A DNA stretch of 16,064 nucleotides from a bacterium (GTDB taxonomy: Bacteria; Hydrothermota; UBA3072; B12-G15). The stretch is taken from positions 1 to 16,064 of the forward strand of contig QNDZ01000018.1 in NCBI GenBank assembly GCA_003646055.1, read 5' to 3'. Positions 945 through 12,687 of the stretch are shown piece after piece. A model generated the notes under the pieces. That model saw nothing but the letters and a program-made list of their open reading frames with translations. It was not told the origin of the DNA and ran no database searches. Numbering within the stretch: position 1 is the stretch's first letter; every line of letters begins with the position of its first letter. Made by a program: the position numbers and the translations under genes.

Positions 945-3038
945 ATGTCAAGGTTTTTTATAGGTCTCCTTATTATTCTGATACTCTCTGGTTGTGCCCA
1001 GCAGCAGAAATTCACATATCAGGGAGAAAAGGGAGGGACTCTAATAATAGCAACCTTTGATGAGCCCTCCAATTTGAGCCCTGTTTATCCCTCGTTCACA
1101 GGTCTTTCTCCAGTTGTAAAGCTTCTTTTTGCACCACTCCACAAGACAGGTCCTGACGGCAAGGTGATGCCATGCCTTGCCAATTCATGGGAGTACTCAG
1201 AGGATATGAAGACCATCACGTACTATCTTGACAGGAATGCAAAATGGTCAGATGGAACACCTCTGACCGCAAAGGATGTGGTTGCAACATTTGAGGCACT
1301 CAAAGACCCTGCAAACCAGTATCCACTCATAGGTAGGTTAAGATTTATTAAGAGTGCCAAGGTTGTGGGTGAACACGCTGTCCAGTTTGAATTCAGAAGG
1401 ATTTATGCGGACGAACTTTTGAATTCAAACCTCTATCCACTGCCAGCAGGTAAGATAAAGGGGATAAAGAATCTTAAATTTATGGATTACACAAGGAAGC
1501 CTGATATTACCTCAGGCCCATATATTTTGAACGAATGGAATCCTGGAAAGTATATAGAACTGATTGCAAATGAAAATTACATCTATGGAAGGCCTCCAAT
1601 AGACAGAATAGTTTTCTGGTTTCCTGCCTCTTATGATGAACTCCTTGATGAGTTGAAGCAGAAGCATGTGGATATAGTACTTGATGTTCCACCAGACAGG
1701 GTTGAGAAACTTGATGGATATAATGTGAAGGTTGAGCCAGGGCAGAGTTATGTGTTCGTGGGATGGAATAACAAGAAATTCAAAAAGGCATTGAGACAGG
1801 CATTCTCCATGGCCATAGATAAAAAGTCAATTATTAAGGATGTATTGAAGGGGTATGGGCAGGAGGCTTATGGCCCAATCACACCAGGGCACTGGGCATA
1901 TGAACCAGAGGTAAAGAACATTGCCTATGCGTACAATCCCCAAAAGGCAAAGGATTTAATCTCTTCCCAGGGATACAGGGACAGAAACAGGGATAGGTTT
2001 TTTGATGGTTTGAGGGTTGAGATTATTGCGGATAAGAACGACCCTGTTAAATCCGCAACTGCTGACCTTGTTGCAAAGCAATTGAGGAAGGCTGGTGTCA
2101 GGGCTGTTGTGAGAAAACTGGACACCCCTGCCTTCATATCAAGGCTCTTAAAGAAGGACTTTGATGCATTCATCCTGGGATGGAATGTGGAAAAGGAATT
2201 CAGCCCCTCTCCGATATGGAATTCAAGGGGGGTTTATAACTTTGTTGGTTACAAAAATACAGATATTGACATGCTGATTGAAAGGGGAATCCTCACCCTA
2301 GATAGGAGGGAGAGCAAGAAGATATGGTCAGAGTTCCAGAAGAGGATTGTTGAGGATGCACCGTACACATTCCTCTATGTCCCTTCTGTTATAGAACTTG
2401 TCAGGTCAGGGATAAAGAATGTTGATGTTAAGGATGCAAGGCTTCTCACAGAAAAACTTGACGAGCTATGGATACCCGCAACAACAAGGGTTAAGGTTAC
2501 AGTAGCTGACCTTGGTAAGAGGTACAGGGAGTCCCAGAAGAAGGCAGCACGGCCCGCTGCACCTGCACCCAGAAGAACACCCACAGCCACTGCAGAGAGC
2601 ATACTCCAGCAGAGCCTTCTTGCCCAACAGCAGGCAGAAGCGCAGAAGACCGAGCAGAAAACCGAAAAGCCATCAGAAGTTGAAACAAAGAAACCAGAAG
2701 GGGAAATGAAACCACCAGAGGAAACCAAGCCTGCTGAAGAGAAGCCCACCCAGCCTGTTATAAAGACTCTGCCACAGGTGAAAAATGGAATAATTCCTGT
2801 GTACCCTGATGTTGCAAAGAGGGTTGGTGCCACAGGAATGGTGTTTGTTACAGTGCTTGTTGGAAAGGATGGAAAGGTGAAGAAGGCAAAGATACTCAGA
2901 AGTTTTGGAAATGCTGCATGTGATAAGGCTGCCCTTGATGCTGCAAAGAAATGGACTTTTATTCCAGGAACCATAAATGGAGAACCTGTTGAAATGGAGA
3001 CAACAATTCCATTCAGGTTCCCACCACCAGAGGAGTGA
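945..3038 (+). CDS. Peptide-type ABC solute-binding lipoprotein fused to a C-terminal TonB domain
   Basis: This 697-aa protein (from the ATG at 945) starts with a lipoprotein signal. A hydrophobic stretch (FFIGLLIILI) runs into lipobox LSGC with the lipidated Cys at residue 17, followed by AQQQ. The +2 residue is Ala, which in E. coli would favour the outer membrane. Residues ~28-510 match the family 5 extracellular solute-binding proteins (DppA/OppA/NikA type), with the GGTLIIATFDEPSNLSP opening, WSDGTPLTAKDVVATFEAL and RQAFSMAIDKKSII. This family binds oligopeptides, nickel chelates or sugars for ABC importers. Residues ~530-610 are a Pro/Glu/Lys/Gln-rich linker. Residues ~611-693 are a TonB C-terminal domain, with PVYPDVAKRVGATGMVFVTV, VGKDGKVKKAKILRS and AALDAAKKWTFIPG. 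No permease or ATPase gene lies nearby, so the substrate is unknown. The stop overlaps the pyrR start by 1 nt (TGATG). Both domain calls are firm; the function of the fusion is not known to me. Confidence 0.9.
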   Translation: MSRFFIGLLIILILSGCAQQQKFTYQGEKGGTLIIATFDEPSNLSPVYPSFTGLSPVVKLLFAPLHKTGPDGKVMPCLANSWEYSEDMKTITYYLDRNAKWSDGTPLTAKDVVATFEALKDPANQYPLIGRLRFIKSAKVVGEHAVQFEFRRIYADELLNSNLYPLPAGKIKGIKNLKFMDYTRKPDITSGPYILNEWNPGKYIELIANENYIYGRPPIDRIVFWFPASYDELLDELKQKHVDIVLDVPPDRVEKLDGYNVKVEPGQSYVFVGWNNKKFKKALRQAFSMAIDKKSIIKDVLKGYGQEAYGPITPGHWAYEPEVKNIAYAYNPQKAKDLISSQGYRDRNRDRFFDGLRVEIIADKNDPVKSATADLVAKQLRKAGVRAVVRKLDTPAFISRLLKKDFDAFILGWNVEKEFSPSPIWNSRGVYNFVGYKNTDIDMLIERGILTLDRRESKKIWSEFQKRIVEDAPYTFLYVPSVIELVRSGIKNVDVKDARLLTEKLDELWIPATTRVKVTVADLGKRYRESQKKAARPAAPAPRRTPTATAESILQQSLLAQQQAEAQKTEQKTEKPSEVETKKPEGEMKPPEETKPAEEKPTQPVIKTLPQVKNGIIPVYPDVAKRVGATGMVFVTVLVGKDGKVKKAKILRSFGNAACDKAALDAAKKWTFIPGTINGEPVEMETTIPFRFPPPEE

Positions 3039-3589
3039 TGGGTAATAAAAAACTGCTTGACAGAGATGGAGTCAGGGAGCTTATAGGCTCCCTGGCTTCT
3101 GATATAATCAACAGGAACAGAAAGAACATAAAAAATATCTGTATCATTGGTATAAGGAACAGGGGGGATATCCTTGCAGAGAGGCTGGCAAAGTACATTT
3201 ATAAGGAAACAGGAATAAAACCACCTGTTGGTGCCATTGATATAACCCTTTACAGGGATGACCTTACTACCATCGGTCCAAGACCATTGATTGGACCTTC
3301 TGAGATTCCCTGTTCTATTGACAACAGGATAGTAATACTTGTAGATGATGTGCTTTACACCGGCAGGACAGTGAGGGCTGCACTGGACGAACTCGTAGAT
3401 TTTGGAAGACCATTGAGGATAGAACTTGCTGTTCTGGTGGACAGGGGTGGCAGGGAACTCCCGATATGTCCAGATTATGTTGGTATAAAGGAGGATATTG
3501 ATAAAAGTCTCAATGTTGCTGTTTATCTTGAAGAACTTGATGGTGAGGAAGGGGTGATAGTGAAAAAGGAGGAGTATGGAAAGGTTTAA
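3038..3589 (+). CDS. pyrR: PyrR bifunctional pyrimidine regulator / uracil phosphoribosyltransferase
   Basis: This 183-aa protein is full length for PyrR, with the type I phosphoribosyltransferase fold. The PRPP-binding motif is [20 protein letters not shown], at about residues 100-119. [17 protein letters not shown] and [17 protein letters not shown] are typical PyrR segments. In Bacillus-like systems PyrR binds UMP or UTP and attenuates pyr mRNA, and it also converts uracil plus PRPP to UMP. The ATG at 3038 is preferred. A GTG at 3035 precedes it in frame but lies within the AGGAG ribosome site. The gene overlaps the upstream stop by 1 nt and pyrB by 14 nt. No PyrR-binding leader fits in these junctions, so the RNA target must lie elsewhere, or the protein may act mainly in uracil salvage. 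The identification is confident; the regulatory role here is inference. Confidence 0.95.
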
Positions 3590-4520
3590 ACAGAAACACC
3601 TTCTTGGGATAGAGGAACTTTCAAGGGATGAAATAGATTCCATACTGGACACAGCCATAATAATGAAGTCTGTCCTTGAGAGGAGGATAAAGAAGGTTCC
3701 CACATTGAGGGGTATAACTGTTGCCAACCTGTTCTTTGAGCCAAGCACAAGAACCCTTAATTCATTCCTCATAGCAGAGAGAAGGCTTTCTGCTGACACA
3801 ATCAATGTATCAAAGAGTTTTTCAAGTGTTTTGAAAGGGGAGACATTGCTTGATACTGCAAGGAACCTTGAGGCCATGAGGGTTGATATGGTAGTAATAA
3901 GACATTCAGTCCCCTGTTCTCCTCATTATCTTGCAGAACGGATAAGTGCATCTGTTATTAATGCAGGGGACGGTGCCCATGAACATCCAACACAGGCATT
4001 GCTTGACATGCTCACGTTGAGGGAGAGGTTTGGGAATATAGAAGGTTTAAAGGTATCCATTATAGGAGATATTCTTCATTCAAGGGTAGCACGTTCATTG
4101 ACAATTGGCCTTTTGAAGAAAGGTGCAGATGTTATTCTCTGTGGTCCACCAACATTCCTTCCTGAATGGTTTGAGGATTACGGTGTAAAAATCACGTATA
4201 ATCTCAAGGATGCAATTGTGGACAGGGATGTAATTTATGTTCTCAGGATACAGAGAGAGAGGCAGGATGCAGCATTTTTGCCATCTTTAAGGGAATACAT
4301 CAGGTATTACTCAGTTAACAGGGATGTTTTGAATAGATATGCAAGAAAAGATGTGATAATAATGCATCCAGGGCCTGTGAACAGGGGTGTTGAACTTGCT
4401 CCAGATGTTGCTGATGGGCCGTGGTCGCTCATACTCCATCAGGTTACCAATGGCATTGCAGTGAGGATGGCAATTCTCTATCTTTTGAGTGGAATTGGCT
4501 CCTCTGGAGGGGTGGAATGA
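3576..4520 (+). CDS. pyrB: Aspartate carbamoyltransferase catalytic subunit
   Basis: PyrB joins carbamoyl phosphate and aspartate to make N-carbamoyl-aspartate, the first committed step of UMP synthesis, in the cytosol. The protein is 314 aa, normal for the family. The carbamoyl-phosphate loop is FFEPSTRT (residues 53-60). The 80s loop is [12 protein letters not shown]. Other conserved pieces are [15 protein letters not shown] (131-145), LHSRVARSL and [11 protein letters not shown] (263-273). One oddity is that the usual STRTRxSF reads STRTLNSF, so the Arg after the STRT motif is Leu; the catalytic STRT itself is intact. AAGGAGGAG sits just before the ATG at 3576, which overlaps pyrR by 14 nt. 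The end overlaps pyrC by 4 nt (ATGA). No pyrI regulatory subunit gene is adjacent. It may pair with PyrC, as in bacteria with an ATCase-DHOase complex, but that is inference. Confidence 0.97.
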
Positions 4521-5785
4521 AGATATTGATAAAGAACGTGAGGATTTTTGACCCTGCGTCAGGAATTGACGAAGAGGGAGATGTTTTTATAAAAAATGGC
4601 ATTGTCTCAAAAAAGAAGGAGGAGACCAGAAACATTATTGAGGGTAAAGGACTTTACCTGTTCCCAGCATTCATAGATATTCATACACATATAAGGGAAC
4701 CAGGTGGTGAGGATATTGAGAATTTTGAATCTGCCTCAAAGGCTGCTGTTGCTGGGGGTTATTCAACGATTTTTATGATGCCCAATACAGAACCTCCCAT
4801 TGACAATGATGGGATGGTGAGGTTTGTTGTGAAGAGGGCAAGGGATGTGGGGCTTGTTAAGATTTACCCTGTTGGCGCAGCAACCATTGGGAGGAGGGGC
4901 GAGAGACTCACTGACATGAGGGCGATGATTGAGTGTGGTTGTATTGGATTTTCAGATGATGGAAGCCCTGTAAAAAACCCAAGGATTTTAAGAAGGATTC
5001 TTGAGTATCTCAAAGGTACAGGGATAAAGTTCATAGAGCATCCTGAAGATACTGAACTCTCCTCTGATGGAAGCATGAATGAGGGCTCCCTTTCAAATAA
5101 ACTTGGTGTTCCAGGTATACCATGGGTATCAGAGGCTTCTGTTGTTATAAGGGATATACTGATTGCTGAATATTTGTCTTCACCCATACACTTTGCCCAT
5201 ATATCAACAGAGGCATCTCTGGACCTTATTCAGTTTGGAAGGAAGAGGGGTGTAAAGATAACATTTGAAGTCACTCCCCATCATCTTTTGCTTGATGAAG
5301 ATAATGTTAAAATCACAGATTCCAATTTTAAGATGAATCCTCCATTGAGAAGCAAGAGGGACAGGAAGGCACTGATAAAGGCGCTTAAAAAAGGTTTTGT
5401 GAATGCAATTGCCACTGACCATGCACCACATCCGCTCTATAAAAAGGAACTTGAGTTTTCACTTGCTCCATTCGGGGTGATAGGGCTTGAAACCGCTTTC
5501 TCCACACTGTACACAGAATTTGTTAGAAAGGGTGTTATAGGTCTTAATGAGTTGATTGAGTATATGTCGGTTAAACCTGCCGGAATCTTTGACCTGAAAA
5601 CAGGTATGGTGAGGGACGGAGCCCCTGCAGATTTTGTTCTCATTGACCTTAAAAAGAAATGGAAAATAACAGAGGATAAATTCCACTCCCTCTCCAGGAA
5701 TTCTCCGTTTCTTGGCTGGGATGTGTATGGCAGGGTTGTCTATACTATTGTGGATGGAAAGGTTGTGTACAAAGAAGGAGATTAA
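4517..5785 (+). CDS. pyrC: Dihydroorotase, class I
   Basis: PyrC is the zinc amidohydrolase that cyclises N-carbamoyl-aspartate to dihydroorotate, the third step of UMP synthesis. The open frame runs further upstream, but the start is the ATG at 4517. It has GGAGG 6 nt upstream, an ATGA overlap with pyrB, and an N-terminus ([16 protein letters not shown]) that matches the family. The protein is 422 aa, the usual class I length. Metal and catalytic residues are in place: [11 protein letters not shown] (His56, His58), FSDDGS (Asp147/148), His175 in FIEHPED, His228 in FAHIST, and Asp301 in IATDHAPHP. Substrate-binding [11 protein letters not shown] is also present. It follows pyrB directly, so the two steps flanking carbamoyl-aspartate are encoded together. 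The remaining genes (carA/B, pyrD/E/F) are not in the window. The assignment is secure. Confidence 0.97.
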
Positions 5786-5794
5786 GGAGGATAG

Positions 5795-7114
5795 ATGGTT
5801 AATATTGAACAGATGATTGATGTTTTTGAAAAAACAATCAAGGGAAATGAAGGTTTAGAACTGTTGATGTTTGCAGAAAGGAGTTTGTTTATCAGGTATG
5901 CAAGGTCTGTGATTCACCAGAATGCACTATTTGATGATACTGTGATAAACCTTGGAATGAGAAGGGGTGAAAAACTTGCTTCAACGGTTTTTACATCTCC
6001 AGATATCGATAAACTCAATCAGGAGATTGAAAAACTTAAAGGTTTGCTGGAATTGATGCCTTCAATTAAAGGCCTACCTCCAATAGTAGAGCCGTATCCT
6101 TTTGAACCAGTGGAAGCAAAAATTGAGGAAATAAAGCCAGAGGTTGAATTTGAGAAGGTGAAAAAAATCATTGAGGCGGCAGAGAATGTCTATGTTCATG
6201 GAATATTGAAAAGGGGATATTCAGTAATTCTGTACACCAATGGAAGGGGATTACACCTTTCGCATGTTTCCCCTGTGAAGTACATGAAGGTGATATATGA
6301 AAAGGGTGACAGGCTTGTAAGAAAGGATTATTTTGATACAGATATTGAACCTGAAAAGGTGATTGATGACCTGAAGTGGAGGATTGAGGCGGGTGATGAG
6401 GAGGTCTTGATAGACCCTGGAAGATACACTGTGATACTTGAGCCATCTGCCCTTGCAGATCTTGCCGAGATGATGGGATATGTAAGTTTAAATGCCAGGG
6501 CAGTAATAGAGGGTCGTTCCTTCTTTGAACATGGGAAGAAAGTGTTTAGCGATGCCATAACAATAGTGGATGACCATGGATTCCCTGATGGTTTCTCCCT
6601 TCCCTTTGATTTTGAGGGTATGCCAAGGAAGAGGGTTGTGATGATTGATAAAGGTGTGTGCAGAAATATTGTTACTGACAGGCTCATGGGGAAGAGAATG
6701 AATAAAGAATCCACAGGCCATTCACTTGGGTTTCTCAATCCTGGTTTTTCATTCCCCATGCATATGGTATTTGACGCTGGGGATACAAGCATTGATGAGA
6801 TGGTGAAGGAAACGAAAAAGGGATTGTTTATTTCTAACTTTCATTACATAAATGTTATAAACCCCAAAGACCTGACCCTTACAGGGATGACCCGTTTTGG
6901 TACCTATCTTATTGAAGATGGAAACATAACCAAACCTGTTAGAAACTTGAGGTTTACCCAGAGTGTTGTTGAGGCATTCAACAATGTTGTATCAGTAACA
7001 AATAAAAGAGAGATAATTGGTCCAACGGATACCTATTCATATACAATTCCCCATCACATGGTTGTTCCAGGAATTAAGATTGAGGGGTTTAATTTTACAG
7101 GGAGAACGGAATGA
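5795..7114 (+). CDS. TldD/PmbA-family protein, PmbA-like (no HExxxH site)
   Basis: This 439-aa protein belongs to the TldD/PmbA (modulator of gyrase, PF01523) family. In studied bacteria its members form a heterodimeric TldD-TldE(PmbA) metalloprotease that degrades unfolded peptides and processes some modified-peptide antibiotics. Family features are the N-terminal AERSLFIRYARSVIHQN strand region, the central DDHGFPDGFSLPFDFEGMP (259-277) followed by RKRVVMIDKGVCRNIVTDR, and the C-terminal TGMTRFGTYLIEDG (363-376) with KPVRNLRFTQSVVEAFNNV. Where TldD carries its HExxxH zinc motif this protein reads LADLAEMMGYV (about 220-230), so the metal site is missing, as in PmbA. No TldD partner lies in the window. 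The ATG at 5795 has AAGGAGG 4 nt upstream. The stop overlaps the next start by 4 nt. The family is secure. The link to the pyrimidine genes is unexplained. Confidence 0.85.
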   Translation: MVNIEQMIDVFEKTIKGNEGLELLMFAERSLFIRYARSVIHQNALFDDTVINLGMRRGEKLASTVFTSPDIDKLNQEIEKLKGLLELMPSIKGLPPIVEPYPFEPVEAKIEEIKPEVEFEKVKKIIEAAENVYVHGILKRGYSVILYTNGRGLHLSHVSPVKYMKVIYEKGDRLVRKDYFDTDIEPEKVIDDLKWRIEAGDEEVLIDPGRYTVILEPSALADLAEMMGYVSLNARAVIEGRSFFEHGKKVFSDAITIVDDHGFPDGFSLPFDFEGMPRKRVVMIDKGVCRNIVTDRLMGKRMNKESTGHSLGFLNPGFSFPMHMVFDAGDTSIDEMVKETKKGLFISNFHYINVINPKDLTLTGMTRFGTYLIEDGNITKPVRNLRFTQSVVEAFNNVVSVTNKREIIGPTDTYSYTIPHHMVVPGIKIEGFNFTGRTE

Positions 7115-9591
7115 AGGTTAAACTTGCAGAGATTGAATCATCGTCAGAACTTTTCAGCAAGTATATAATATCAATAAAAAGAACTATAGGCAGGAGTGAG
7201 GTTCTTGAGGAAGTAAGAACAAATCTCCAGAAATTTTTCCAGAACAGGGTATTCCCTTCAGATTTTCTTGAATTCTTGAATCAGCATGAGGTTATAATCT
7301 TTACTGATTTCAATGAGGAGGAAAGATACAGGATTGGAAGGGATATAACAAATCCAGAAGAGGTATCTCTTTTCCTTGGTGAGGTATATTCCAACATCAA
7401 GAATTCTTCCCCTGTTTTTCTCCCAATATTTGAGGCATTGATAATCAAAATATTTCCAACGATTTTCAGCACTGCAAGGGAATCAGAAGGATTTGGTAGA
7501 AGGATAAAAAAGGTTTTTGATGACCTATCAAAATCCATTCCTGAGAATGATAGAAAGTTTCTTGACCATTTACATAAGGGACCATATCTCCTGGGGATTA
7601 ACCTGAGAAGTCTCAATCTTGGAGACCTTGAACAGTTTTATCATAGATATGGTTTCACAACGGATGCACTCAAAGAAATGCACGACACACTTATGGATAG
7701 TTTCAGGGCAAGGGAGGAGGAGCACCTCCTTAAACTGCTTGAATCAACAGAGATAACTGATTATGCTGATTTGAGGAATTTCCCCTTCAAGGACTTCCTT
7801 TACCCGTCTGAAAAGGCACTTAACAAGTTTGCAAAAATGGTATCCACCAAGGCTGCTTCAAAGGAGAAAATCCTGAAGCAGCAGGACAAAGAACTTGATA
7901 TGCTTTCCAAGAAGGTAAGGGATGAAACCCAGAAGATTCTTGAAAAAACAATGAAGGAACTCCAGAATATCCTTGACGTCAATGCAAGGGGTGATTTAAG
8001 TAAGGCAATAGAGGGTTCACAGATAGCAATCATTGACCTTTTGAAGAGGATTAAATTCCATATGAGGATATTCAAAGACTATCTTGAGAAGATGGAGGAA
8101 CTTGGAAAGAGGATTGAGGAGAACAGGGGATTGCAATCAATGAACCCTGAAAAGTTGATGGAATTCCTTCCACCACAGCCAGAATGGGAGATTGAGAAGA
8201 TTGTGAGGGAATACTGGCGCGCTGAGAAGTATTTTGATGTTATTGAGCCCAAAGTTTTAAAAATCGTACAGAAAAATTTGACAAGGGATGCAAAGAGAGA
8301 CCCGGATATTTTTGAACCAATACTTGATGAAAGCAGAAAGGGGGTTTATGTTGACCCTGAGATGGCTGTGGGAAACTATCATTTGATTATGAGAAGCATA
8401 CTTGAACCCATTTACATTTACAAAATTTTAGGGGATATTGTGTATGTATGGCCACCAAAGGTTGACCCACAGAATCCAAAATCCTATGTTGATGCCACAG
8501 ATGCCATACACATAACGGGAATAGAACTCCTTCCCAATGGAAAGTTTTACAGATTTTCCAGAAAGGGGAAGGTTGCACCCAATGTGAATGTTTCTCTGCT
8601 TGAAAGGCAAAAGGAGATAGGTGGAATTCTAACAAGAAACTTTGCCTCACTTGTTACTGTACTCGTATATGATGTGAGGGGCTCAACATTCATGTCCCAT
8701 AAACTCCATGATGCTGAAAAACAGAGGAGTATTCTTAATAAATTCCACTACGTTGTTTTTGATACTGCAAGGAAGGGTGGTGGATTTCTTTTGAAGGAAA
8801 CAGGGGATGGAGGGATTATCTGGTATGGTGGGAATTCACAGGAACTTTTCAGGGAGATCTACAAAACCTTCTGGTCTGAAAAGGAATACCAGATACGTTT
8901 TTCAACTGCTGTGGAGGAGGAGTTCAATCTTCTCAAAGACCCTTCTTCTGGATTAAAGGCAGTGGGTTCTGCTGTGGGGATTGTTAATGCTGCTGAGGAG
9001 TTTGTTAAGGCAAATTACATGCATTACAGAGAGTGGTTTGGTGAACTGGCAGAAAAAGAGGTTCTCCATGAGGGGATTACATATGCACTACTACCTCCAG
9101 AGTTCAAGGCACTTTTCAGACTCGGGATTGGTATAGCAAGTGGTAAACCCGGCAAGGATGTTGTATTTACACCCAACTCATTTGGTGACCCGGATCTTAC
9201 AGGGCTTCTTGTTAATGAGGCAACAGTGTTTTCAACAGGCAGATCACCAGAGAGGTCTGTTATATTGATTGACCACCCAACCCTTATGAATATAATTCTC
9301 AATAGTGAAAGGTTCTACCTTACAGGGAGATACGGTGAAAGATTGGAGAATGATGAGGTGATAGAGAAACTGCTCAGCATCCTCAGGATGAGAGAGGGTG
9401 AAAGGACCTACTTCATGGAAGGGTACAGGATAAAGAGGGCTGGTATTTATTACATGGATGAAGAAGATAAGTCAAAACAACTTTTGCTTGAGCCAGCAGA
9501 GATTGAGTTTGAAATTAAGGAGGATGGAGAATTTGTTTCTGATAGAGGTAGAGTAAAGATTCTCTACCAGGTTATACCCGAAGAAGAATGA
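7111..9591 (+). CDS. Large soluble protein with a C-terminal class III nucleotide cyclase homology domain
   Basis: I do not recognise this 826-aa protein as a whole. Residues ~1-240 are helical with no identified domain. About 245-340 is strongly charged and coiled-coil-like (KEKILKQQDKELDMLSKKVR). About 400-505 is a further unrecognised module. Residues ~510-735 (8638-9315) resemble a class III adenylate/guanylate cyclase domain. VYDVRGST supplies the first metal Asp (D521). LLKETGDGG supplies K562 and the second metal Asp (D566), and LGIGIASG (671-678) is the usual strand. DLTGLLVNEA supplies D695 and N702. The Lys/Asp pair is the adenine-type base-recognition pair. The transition-state Arg expected four residues after the Asn is Val706. 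The GD to GIGIASG spacing is ~105 residues, about 45 more than usual. No signal peptide or membrane segment is visible, so it is probably cytosolic. The ATG overlaps the previous stop (ATGA), and its own stop overlaps the GAF-GGDEF gene. Activity is uncertain: it could be a divergent cyclase or a nucleotide sensor. Confidence 0.7.
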   Translation: MKVKLAEIESSSELFSKYIISIKRTIGRSEVLEEVRTNLQKFFQNRVFPSDFLEFLNQHEVIIFTDFNEEERYRIGRDITNPEEVSLFLGEVYSNIKNSSPVFLPIFEALIIKIFPTIFSTARESEGFGRRIKKVFDDLSKSIPENDRKFLDHLHKGPYLLGINLRSLNLGDLEQFYHRYGFTTDALKEMHDTLMDSFRAREEEHLLKLLESTEITDYADLRNFPFKDFLYPSEKALNKFAKMVSTKAASKEKILKQQDKELDMLSKKVRDETQKILEKTMKELQNILDVNARGDLSKAIEGSQIAIIDLLKRIKFHMRIFKDYLEKMEELGKRIEENRGLQSMNPEKLMEFLPPQPEWEIEKIVREYWRAEKYFDVIEPKVLKIVQKNLTRDAKRDPDIFEPILDESRKGVYVDPEMAVGNYHLIMRSILEPIYIYKILGDIVYVWPPKVDPQNPKSYVDATDAIHITGIELLPNGKFYRFSRKGKVAPNVNVSLLERQKEIGGILTRNFASLVTVLVYDVRGSTFMSHKLHDAEKQRSILNKFHYVVFDTARKGGGFLLKETGDGGIIWYGGNSQELFREIYKTFWSEKEYQIRFSTAVEEEFNLLKDPSSGLKAVGSAVGIVNAAEEFVKANYMHYREWFGELAEKEVLHEGITYALLPPEFKALFRLGIGIASGKPGKDVVFTPNSFGDPDLTGLLVNEATVFSTGRSPERSVILIDHPTLMNIILNSERFYLTGRYGERLENDEVIEKLLSILRMREGERTYFMEGYRIKRAGIYYMDEEDKSKQLLLEPAEIEFEIKEDGEFVSDRGRVKILYQVIPEEE

Positions 9592-11129
9592 GACCTGAAT
9601 TCAAGATATTCTCGCGTATAATAAAAGCAATAAACTCCCCGAGTAAAGGGATTGACGAGGTTCTGCACATAATAATGGTAAATATCTCTGAATTAATCCA
9701 GGCAGAGGCCTGGTCACTCTTTATCCTTGATGAAGAGAAAAGAGAACTTGTTTTCCATGAGGTGTTCGGAGAGAAGGCTGAGAAATTGAAAGGTATGAGA
9801 ATACCCATGGATAAAGGGATAGTAGGTTGGGTTGCCACAAACAAAAAGCCTGTGATTGTGGACGATGTATATAAAGACAAAAGGTTCTTCAAGGAGGTTG
9901 ATAAAAAATCAAGATTCAAAACAAAATCGATCCTTGCTGTTCCTATGATAAGCAGGGGTAAACTTGTTGGGGTTGTTGAGGTTATAAATAAGAAGGATGG
10001 AAAGCCTTTCACAAAGGGAGACCTTGAAATAATAAAGACCTATGTTGAACAGGCAGCACTTGCCCTTGAGAATGCAAATCTTTTAAAGAATTTGAAACAG
10101 AAGATTGACTATTTGACCCTGCTTTCAAGGATAAATAGAAACATAACTTCAATACTTGATTTCAAACTGCTTCTTAATAGAAGTGCCGAGATTATAAGAA
10201 AAACATTTGGTTATCACTATGTTTGCATCGGTCTTAAAAGGGGGAAAAAGGTAATTCTCCAGGGATTTTCCACTGCTGAAGGTCTTCCACCAAGAAGGAC
10301 CGTGATTTATGAGGGTGAAGGTATTGTTGGTGAGGCGATAAGACTGAAGAAACCCGTTGTTGTTCAGGATGTCTCAAAGGAAACAAGGTATCTTCCAGGG
10401 ATTGAGGGAACACTTTCAGAGATGGTTATACCTATCAAGAAAAAGGGTCAGTTGCTTGGTATAATTGATATAGGTAATAATTATAGTGATTCATTCAAAA
10501 ATGAAGAAATAGAGGTAATCACCCAGGTTTCTCATCAACTTGCAGTTGCAATAGAGAATGCAAAACTTTATGAGAAGATAAAAGAGTCCACATTGAGAGA
10601 CGACCTTACAGGTTTTTATAATTCCAGATATACAGAAGGGCCTTTGAAAGACCTTGTGAATGAGGCTGTTAAAGAAGGTCATCCAGTCTCCCTCATATTC
10701 CTTGACCTTGACCATTTTAAGTGGGTGAATGATAGTTTTGACCACCTTGTGGGAAGTTATACACTCAGACTTGTGGCAAACAGGTTGAAGCGTTATATTA
10801 AAGATGTTGGTATTGGTGTCAGGTATGGTGGCGACGAGTATATGATTATACTGCCCGGGATGAATCTTAAAGAGGCAGTTGAGTTTGCCGAGTTTTTGAG
10901 GAAGAAGTTGAATGGTAGAAGGTTTAAGATTTCAAAAAATACAAGATACAGAATATCTGCAAGTTTTGGGGTTTCTTCTATGCCTGAAGTGGCAGGAAGT
11001 GTTGAGGAACTTATCAGGACTGCAGATATTGCCATGTATAAGGTGAAGGAACTGGGAAGAAACAACACGGCATACTTTGACAAAGAGAGGAGGATAAGAC
11101 TTGTCAACGATTGGAAAGACCGTATCTGA
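9588..11129 (+). CDS. GAF-GAF-GGDEF nucleotidyl cyclase, possible Hypr type (3',3'-cGAMP)
   Basis: This 513-aa cytosolic protein has two GAF sensor domains (about 5-165 and 180-325), each with family sequence (DKGIVGWVATNKKPVIVDDV, then GEGIVGEAIRLKKPVVVQDV). A linker helix leads to a GGDEF domain (about 332-500) with RDDLTGFYNSRY, FLDLDHFKWVND (371-382), active-site GGDEY (414-418) and ADIAMYKVKELGRN. GGDEF enzymes make cyclic dinucleotides, usually c-di-GMP, on dimerisation. In the guanine-binding helix the usual NDxxGHxxGD reads NDSFDHLVGS. Asn381 is kept, but the Asp nine residues later is Ser390. Asp to Ser at this position is the signature of Hypr GGDEF enzymes, which make 3',3'-cGAMP. 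No RxxD inhibitory site is present at the usual place before GGDEY, where the sequence is KDVGIGVRY. The start overlaps the preceding stop (ATGA). The fold is secure; the product is inference. Confidence 0.93.
   Translation: MRPEFKIFSRIIKAINSPSKGIDEVLHIIMVNISELIQAEAWSLFILDEEKRELVFHEVFGEKAEKLKGMRIPMDKGIVGWVATNKKPVIVDDVYKDKRFFKEVDKKSRFKTKSILAVPMISRGKLVGVVEVINKKDGKPFTKGDLEIIKTYVEQAALALENANLLKNLKQKIDYLTLLSRINRNITSILDFKLLLNRSAEIIRKTFGYHYVCIGLKRGKKVILQGFSTAEGLPPRRTVIYEGEGIVGEAIRLKKPVVVQDVSKETRYLPGIEGTLSEMVIPIKKKGQLLGIIDIGNNYSDSFKNEEIEVITQVSHQLAVAIENAKLYEKIKESTLRDDLTGFYNSRYTEGPLKDLVNEAVKEGHPVSLIFLDLDHFKWVNDSFDHLVGSYTLRLVANRLKRYIKDVGIGVRYGGDEYMIILPGMNLKEAVEFAEFLRKKLNGRRFKISKNTRYRISASFGVSSMPEVAGSVEELIRTADIAMYKVKELGRNNTAYFDKERRIRLVNDWKDRI
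11088..11093 (+). promoter_or_regulatory. Shine-Dalgarno site that fixes the TTG start of the nucleoside kinase
   Basis: AGGAGG lies 7 nt before TTG at 11101, inside the end of the GGDEF gene. Of the possible starts, the TTG is the one placed correctly for this site. The GTG at 11134 has no such site. Confidence 0.7.
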
Positions 11130-12687
11130 GATAGTGGGAAAGGTGGATTATCCTGTTACACTTGCCCTTGTGGACAATCAATACACAGGGCTGAACGATA
11201 TTGTCCCTGAATGGGCGGACATAAAACTTCTTGACCTGACCCACCCGGAAGGAAGACGTACCTATGAAAGAACCATAACATTTCTTCTTTCCTATGTTGC
11301 ATACAAAAAAGGTGTGACCATTAAGATTGAGCATTCATATGGGGATGCCCTGTATGGAGAGATTGAGAGTGGTGAGTTTAATCTTGTTCAGGCAAAAAGG
11401 GAAATAGAAGAACTTGTGAAGCAGAATATAGAAATAGAGAAGAAGATGTTAACAAAGCATGAGGCAATCTACTATCTCCAGAAAGAGAACAAAGAGGATG
11501 ACCTGAGGATAATCCAGTATCTATCACGGGACTTTATCCCCCTTTACAGGATTAAAGATTATATTTGTTATTTCGCAGGTCCTCTGCTTCCAAACACAGG
11601 TTTTCTTAAACTCTTTGATATAGTGCGCATGGGTGATGGTTTCCTGATTATTCTGCCTGATAGAAAAAATCCATCACAACTGGGGAGGATAGAAGAAAGG
11701 CAGAAACTCTTGAAAACATACAGCGAAACAAAAAAATGGGCTGAAATACTTGATATATGGAGTATAGGCCACCTGAATGAGTCTGTTGTTTCAGGGAAAA
11801 TAAGTGAGATTGTGAAGGTTGCTGAATCCTTCCATGAAAAGAAGATAGCATATATCTCAGATGAAATTCTGCACAGGAAGGGAACCGTGAGGATTGTCCT
11901 GATTGCAGGGCCGAGTTCCTCTGGCAAGACTACCTTTTCAAAGAGGCTGAGTGTTCATATGAAGGTGAATGGTCTTAAACCAAAGGCATTCGGCCTTGAT
12001 GATTATTTTGTTGACAGGGATAAGACACCTCTTGATGAGGAAGGAAATCCATATTTTGACTCTATAGATGCCATAGACCTCAAGCTCTTCAATGAACACT
12101 TGAGTAAACTTTTATCAGGTGAGGAGGTAGAGATACCCAGGTTTAATTTTAAGAAGGGTAAGAGGGAATGGGTTGGAAGGAAGATGCGGTTAAAACCTGA
12201 TGAAATCCTTATTATTGAAGGACTCCATGCTCTGAATCCAAGGCTTACTGAGAGTGTGGACGATGCATACAAGTACAAGATTTATGTGAGTGCATTAACC
12301 CAGTTGAATATCAACAGATTGAATAGAATACCAACAAGGGACGTGAGGCTTTTGAGGAGAATATTCAGGGATACCCTGTTCAGGGGCAATCCACCCTCCG
12401 TGACACTTGAAAGATGGGGGAGTGTTGTGAGAGGGGAAGAGGAGAACATATTCCCATTCCAGGAGAATGCGGATGTGATGTTCAACTCCTCCCTTGTGTA
12501 TGAACTTGCCGTGTTGAAGAACTTTGTTGAAACTCCTTTAAGGTCCATTACTGCTGATGACCCATACTACTGTGAGGCACTGAGGCTTTTAAACTTTCTC
12601 AACCACTTCCTGCCAATCACTGAGGAGGAGATACCCCCCACTTCAATATTAAGGGAGTTCATTGGAGGTAGTAGCTTCAGATATTGA
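11101..12687 (+). CDS. Uridine-kinase-like nucleoside kinase with ThrRS-like N-terminal region
   Basis: This 528-aa protein has a C-terminal uridine kinase/phosphoribulokinase-type P-loop domain and a long N-terminal region. The N-terminal ~200 residues resemble the TGS and second additional domain of threonyl-tRNA synthetase (VDYPVTLALVDNQYTGLND, then a helical stretch and FLKLFDIVRMGDGFLIILP). The same pairing occurs in Firmicutes and Thermotoga proteins annotated 'nucleoside kinase'. Kinase features are Walker A GPSSSGKTT (270-278), LDDYFVDRDKTPLDEEGNP (299-317), FDSIDAIDL, IIEGLHALNP (371-380) and the lid RRIFRDTLFRG (419-429). A likely role is ATP- or GTP-dependent phosphorylation of uridine/cytidine to the monophosphate, which fits pyrR, pyrB and pyrC upstream. 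The substrate has not been shown for this architecture as far as I can tell from sequence. The TTG start overlaps the GGDEF gene by 29 nt. This is the last gene of the packed run. Confidence 0.88.
   Translation: MSTIGKTVSEIVGKVDYPVTLALVDNQYTGLNDIVPEWADIKLLDLTHPEGRRTYERTITFLLSYVAYKKGVTIKIEHSYGDALYGEIESGEFNLVQAKREIEELVKQNIEIEKKMLTKHEAIYYLQKENKEDDLRIIQYLSRDFIPLYRIKDYICYFAGPLLPNTGFLKLFDIVRMGDGFLIILPDRKNPSQLGRIEERQKLLKTYSETKKWAEILDIWSIGHLNESVVSGKISEIVKVAESFHEKKIAYISDEILHRKGTVRIVLIAGPSSSGKTTFSKRLSVHMKVNGLKPKAFGLDDYFVDRDKTPLDEEGNPYFDSIDAIDLKLFNEHLSKLLSGEEVEIPRFNFKKGKREWVGRKMRLKPDEILIIEGLHALNPRLTESVDDAYKYKIYVSALTQLNINRLNRIPTRDVRLLRRIFRDTLFRGNPPSVTLERWGSVVRGEEENIFPFQENADVMFNSSLVYELAVLKNFVETPLRSITADDPYYCEALRLLNFLNHFLPITEEEIPPTSILREFIGGSSFRY

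Follow-up and report, generated by a model that had tools for sequence, protein, structure and literature searches.

Gene layout of the locus

The DNA analysed here, which we refer to as the window, is a stretch of 16,064 nucleotides from a bacterium assigned to Hydrothermota, UBA3072, B12-G15 (assembly GCA_003646055.1, contig QNDZ01000018.1, 1 to 16,064, forward strand); the GGDEF gene, its two neighbours and the parts of each described below lie on its plus strand. An open reading frame at 9588..11129 encodes a 513-aa protein, a candidate Hypr-type GAF-GAF-GGDEF enzyme, in which Pfam recognises two GAF stretches and a GGDEF domain and for which the AlphaFold model has a mean pLDDT of 88.2. 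The first GAF domain covers residues 22-160 (9651..10067; Pfam), and the second, at residues ~192-330 (10161..10577; Pfam, two stretches), takes its bounds from the secondary structure of the AlphaFold model. A first-pass annotation of this DNA likewise described tandem GAF domains as input. The GGDEF domain (residues 337-493; 10596..11066) was recovered by Pfam, by a search of the window's own genome and by a match to 6d9m, which is its best PDB sequence match and also the highest GGDEF row by VIA.

The start of the GGDEF gene is overlapped by 4 bases by a gene for an 826-aa protein (7111..9591) with a predicted class III nucleotide-cyclase fold at its C-terminus. The cyclase-homology region, supported by the predicted fold and by invariant residues, comprises residues 513-826 (8647..9588) and includes a long internal insertion. 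Downstream, an overlapping open reading frame (11101..12687) is uridine-kinase-like, with a match to Pfam PRK and one to NCBIfam udk that falls below the latter's cut-off. Orthologs of the GGDEF protein scoring above 300 bits occur in 16 of 147 genomes of the window's phylum, and the loci of the 15 genomes other than the window's own were fetched for comparison. The pair lies behind pyrR-pyrB-pyrC in the window (3035-12687) and in 7 of these 15 loci (L039-L044, L046), and a uridine-kinase-like gene follows it in 6 of the 15; in these loci the nucleotide-messenger module sits inside a pyrimidine gene cluster.

Signature residues of the GGDEF domain

The first-pass annotation had proposed that Ser390 (10755..10757) replaces the Asp that reads guanine. 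A gapless alignment places this nucleobase-specificity residue in the column of PleD Asp344 and Ser348 of the Geobacter enzyme GmGacA, and the guanine-recognition position indeed holds Ser, not Asp. Sequencing or alignment error was considered as a source of Ser390 and rejected, as the sister genome (97% identity) and six further ortholog loci have the same residue. A second Hypr mark is Ser346 (10623..10625), which aligns with GmGacA Tyr304 in a column whose offset is fixed by Ser348 and which occupies the cross-dimer site of the canonical Arg. The 2019 eLife study of GacA (PMC6456294) reports that 94% of predicted diguanylate cyclases retain this Arg, where it stacks on the base bound by the opposite half-site, and that it is exchanged in Hypr enzymes. 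cGAMP predominates in the output of the Hypr enzymes in which the site is Tyr, Ser, Ala or Gln, and two that have Arg make more c-di-GMP, such that a non-Arg residue is usual but not universal (PMC6456294). The sugar-edge contact, Asn381 (10728..10730), aligns with GmGacA Asn339, whose role is described in the same paper.

The catalytic motif, GGDEY (10827..10841; open reading frame and alignment), agrees with the pattern in PMC6456294 that natural Ser/Thr enzymes are found with GGDE[F/Y] only, not GGEEF. All 28 rows compared share D373, D375, K378, D382, H386, R412, GGDE and K487. With GGDEY and Asn381 intact, the view that the domain looks catalytic holds as a prediction of activity, and a degenerate GGDEF domain was ruled out given that the catalytic residues are retained. 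The I-site is degenerate, reading KDVG for RxxD (10800..10811); among the 29 nearest homologs a single one has RxxD. The window protein thus combines the sequence features examined for a Hypr GGDEF, namely the GGDEF fold with its catalytic residues, Ser390, the central Asp and a non-Arg cross-dimer residue.

These features extend well beyond the window. Of 700 homologs at E 1e-40, the best 120 were examined, and two (P0032 and P0108) were set aside as non-GGDEF; among the remaining 118 proteins, residue 390 is Ser in 109, Gly in 7, Ala in 1 and Asp in 1, leaving 117 without Asp. The nearest named homologs, among the matches listed, come from candidate division WOR-3, TA06 and Edwardsbacteria. 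At the 15 ortholog loci the residue is Ser in 7, Gly in 6, Ala in 2 and Asp in none; by comparison, all six other GGDEF domains of the window's genome have Asp (seven GGDEF matches in total). Because the Hypr features are present and 117 of the 118 listed GGDEF homologs lack Asp, we regard the prediction of a Hypr synthase as well supported; the observation behind the first-pass annotation is confirmed, and its reading of the protein as a further Hypr enzyme is probably right.

A larger set of 263 GGDEF domains, redundant and collected with a profile of the window protein's family, revealed how the signature positions vary together. Ser, Gly or Ala occupies position 390 in 157 of these domains, none of which has Arg346, and GGEEF is absent from all 154 of them with a fully readable motif. 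The 103 domains with Asp390 include 75 with Arg346 and 58 with GGEEF. Replacement of Asn381 by Asp, Val or Cys occurs only where Asp390 is gone (0/103 Asp390 domains).

One may postulate an alternative in which the window protein is an ordinary diguanylate cyclase that tolerates Ser, its c-di-GMP acting on MshEN pilus ATPases and being degraded by EAL or HD-GYP enzymes of the same genome. There is a precedent in GSU3350, which stayed a pure diguanylate cyclase when given Ser by mutation; the other four of the five canonical enzymes with the D-to-S exchange alone lost their activity (PMC6456294). We nevertheless consider this scenario unlikely, since a cross-dimer Ser goes with cGAMP-rich output in the same source and the combination of non-Asp, non-Arg and GGDE holds throughout the family as collected, which would be unexpected under plain drift.

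Recurrent pairing with a cyclase-fold gene

We examined 35 loci, consisting of the 15 ortholog regions and 20 regions hand-picked from genomes with cyclase-fold matches. Both genes are adjacent in 25; in eight, one of them (L181) close to a contig end, no GGDEF adjoins the cyclase-fold gene, and two have the GGDEF without a cyclase-fold gene. In the latter two (L045 and L022) the contigs begin or end 1.2-1.5 kb upstream of the GGDEF, and the genome of L045 (G017) has cyclase-fold genes on another contig without a GGDEF (L193). The GGDEF adjoining the cyclase-fold gene lacks Asp390 in 25 of 25 fetched loci, which do not form a random sample, since 20 regions were hand-picked and G016, G034 and G038 were chosen for a nearby GGDEF already seen. 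The motif of the paired GGDEFs is GGDE[Y/F] wherever it could be read (24/24; that of L046 is cut by a contig end). As a control, 20 GGDEF domains were hand-picked from listed matches elsewhere in five of the pair-bearing genomes, on contigs with no listed cyclase-fold match, and all 20 have Asp390. What is new here is the recurrent pairing of a non-Asp GGDEF with a little-described cyclase-fold protein; we found no published account of such a Hypr pairing in the open-licence literature searched.

Within the module, the base-reading pair (positions 381-390) varies among Asn-Ser, Asn-Gly, Asn-Ala and Asp-Ser. Seven loci (L177-L180, L182, L183, L196) have tandem cyclase-fold genes followed by a shorter GGDEF with Asp381 and Ser390, and the acidic residue seems to have moved there to the other base-contacting position. 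This variability bears on two further alternatives. A different main product, c-di-AMP or another purine dinucleotide, would lie within the Hypr repertoire, which includes c-di-AMP and the acceptance of other purines (PMC6456294 and PMC9140294), and the specificity positions do vary inside the family; the window protein itself, however, retains the sugar-edge contact Asn381, and we regard this outcome as very improbable. Only slightly less remote is a catalytically weak GGDEF that serves the cyclase-fold partner as a subunit for nucleotide sensing or regulation. The recurrence of the gene pair would fit such a role, as would the occurrence in many relatives of Gly or Ala at position 390, which would remove the side-chain contact to the base, and the replacement of Asn381 by Asp, Cys or Val in some, but the invariance of the catalytic residues, GGDE included, is unlike degenerate GGDEF domains.

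For the upstream protein, Pfam and NCBIfam returned no cyclase match, and the class III assignment comes from its predicted structure. Together with the long insertion (residues ~600-668, window 8908-9114, with model confidence below 50 at 644-661), this sets it apart from the nearest known class III nucleotide cyclases, CyaB of P. aeruginosa and CyaC of Spirulina. A full-length homolog search found 2 proteins at E 1e-10; a search with residues 490-800 found 156 at E 0.001, of which 120 were listed, and a PDB sequence search with the protein's profile gave chance-like ribosomal matches only. Asp521, Asp566, Lys562 and Asp695 are invariant in 31 of 31 rows; we take D521 and D566 to be the two metal-binding Asp and K562 and D695 the adenine-type Lys/Asp of class III cyclases. 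Positions 702 and 706, presumably those of the usual transition-state Asn and Arg, differ from class III cyclases: 13 of the 31 rows have Asn at the former, and no row has Arg at the latter. As Asn and Arg are not both present at these presumed positions, we do not file the protein as an active cyclase.

Cyclic dinucleotide machinery and proposed function

The GEMM-Ib riboswitches that the first-pass annotation had suggested seeking in the same genome did not appear: RF01051 (GEMM-I) had 0 matches in the window's genome, the assembly of which is 80.6% complete, and none in the sister genome G001 under stricter filters, and an Rfam gathering search of the window gave 0 riboswitch matches. The proposed extension of cGAMP signalling to this lineage consequently stands for the synthase, as a well-supported prediction, and is unsupported for a receptor. 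Across the 147 genomes of the phylum, searched with stricter filters than the window's own genome, RF01051 occurs in six, all among the 16 ortholog carriers (Fisher p 6e-7, uncorrected for kinship, with four of the six from one family), and in 0 of 14 control genomes; one further match (L058) is borderline. In the class I aptamer, the G20A exchange permits binding of cGAMP (PMC6274999). By our reading of the cmscan alignments, ligand position 20 is A (cGAMP type) in L054 and G (c-di-GMP type) in L052, L053, L055, L056 and L057. The relatives thus have a sensor class suited by its sequence to cyclic dinucleotides, with the c-di-GMP type in the majority. Gly390 rather than Ser390 is found in five of the six genomes with a riboswitch, including the one with A.

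The c-di-GMP type of five of the six stronger riboswitches in relatives adds some weight to the ordinary diguanylate cyclase considered above. So does the window's genome, in which c-di-GMP machinery is probably present given 3 MshEN, 1 EAL and 6 HD_5 matches; PilZ had no match there. In Myxococcus, cGAMP is degraded by the HD-GYP enzyme PmxA (PMC8844925).

Our preferred reading, which we consider probable, is that the GGDEF protein of the window is a Hypr-type enzyme belonging to the WOR-3/TA06 assemblage, with 3',3'-cGAMP as its main or a substantial product, some c-di-GMP, and a cyclase-fold regulatory partner. The restriction of RF01051 to ortholog carriers and the A of L054 also speak for this reading; weighing against it are the lack of RF01051 matches in the window's genome and its sister, the predominance of G and of Gly390 among the riboswitch carriers, Ser at just 7 of the 15 ortholog loci, the outcome of the D-to-S exchanges and the weak tree support for one Hypr group. 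Two protomers would each bind one purine NTP over GGDEY. Ser390 could form hydrogen bonds with adenine as well as with guanine, whereas Asp would require guanine, and with Ser at 346 the cross-dimer Arg and its preference for guanine would be gone; the two exchanges together would make 3',3'-cGAMP the main or a substantial product beside some c-di-GMP. Loss of the RxxD I-site may free the enzyme from canonical product inhibition, its likely input would be the tandem GAF domains, and the class III cyclase-fold protein may act as its regulatory partner in the recurrent gene pair. A more speculative elaboration, which we put forward tentatively, is a relay in which the cyclase-fold protein makes a nucleotide signal or senses one by binding ATP, PDE5-like tandem GAFs read that signal and cGAMP-type synthesis is switched on; the base-reading pair would have diversified within this relay, and relocation of the acidic residue, away from the Watson-Crick position and onto the sugar-edge one, may confer specificities not yet described.

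The closest known systems, the Hypr enzymes GacA of Geobacter (GSU1658, Gmet_1914) and Bd0367 of Bdellovibrio, share with the window protein the Ser at the specificity site and the non-Arg cross-dimer residue, and GacA also shares GGDE[F/Y] and the GGDEF fold. The Myxococcus enzymes GacA/GacB are stated to be Hypr (PMC8844925) and are likened here on the basis of that description. The window protein has tandem GAF domains, and the 6d9m record names GacA a response-receiver, GAF-containing protein. Unlike the known Hypr enzymes, the window protein lacks the primary I-site and adjoins a cyclase-fold gene, and its relatives include Gly, Ala and Asp381-Ser390 variants. Hypr domains make up 0.17% of GGDEF domains (PMC9140294), and their named sources in the accessible parts of PMC9140294, PMC6456294 and PMC8844925 are Geobacter, Bdellovibrio and Myxococcus, together with two further bacteria (Cabther_A1065, Ddes1475). 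No paper on WOR-3 with cyclic dinucleotides or GGDEF was found in the open-licence literature, which is weak evidence of absence. If the preferred reading is true, a Hypr family that recurs as half of a gene pair in this uncultured assemblage would extend the range over which cGAMP signalling is sought. Its natural Gly, Ala and Asp-Ser variants would provide material on the selection of ATP or GTP by GGDEF domains, and the cyclase-fold gene a handle on the control of a Hypr enzyme. What goes beyond a new member is the recurrent cyclase-fold pairing and the way in which the base-reading pair has drifted within the module.

Relationship to other GGDEF domains

We reconstructed a tree of 149 rows in which columns 346, 381, 390 and 416 were masked, with GmGacA included and Bd0367 left out. 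A single change accounts for the 99 Asp390 rows, and GmGacA falls among the Ser rows. Support was weak (SH-aLRT of 65 for the split from Asp390 and 83 for a 51-row fork), and the fork as drawn also takes in three rows with Asn390 and one Asp390 row on a long branch (L037). This topology suggests, but does not prove, that the Hypr domains share one origin. A scan of genome contigs found distant GGDEFs (23-40% identity), among them nine Ser390 domains, from Myxococcota, Acidobacteriota, Geobacteraceae and an unplaced bacterium, and three Asn390 domains.

Several minor observations accompany these results. In family f9, GEMM-I riboswitches (L053, L054, L055, L056) lie near genes that, as read from open reading frames, encode large secreted-looking proteins. 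The riboswitch L057 (G007:C153) precedes a gene with a possible PEP-CTERM end, which we take to resemble that signal; as G007 is split into 540 contigs totalling 3.9 Mb, the one with L057 may stem from contamination. Finally, three Bacillaceae GGDEF domains (L072, L077, L083) combine a GGEEF motif with Asn in the Asp344 column.
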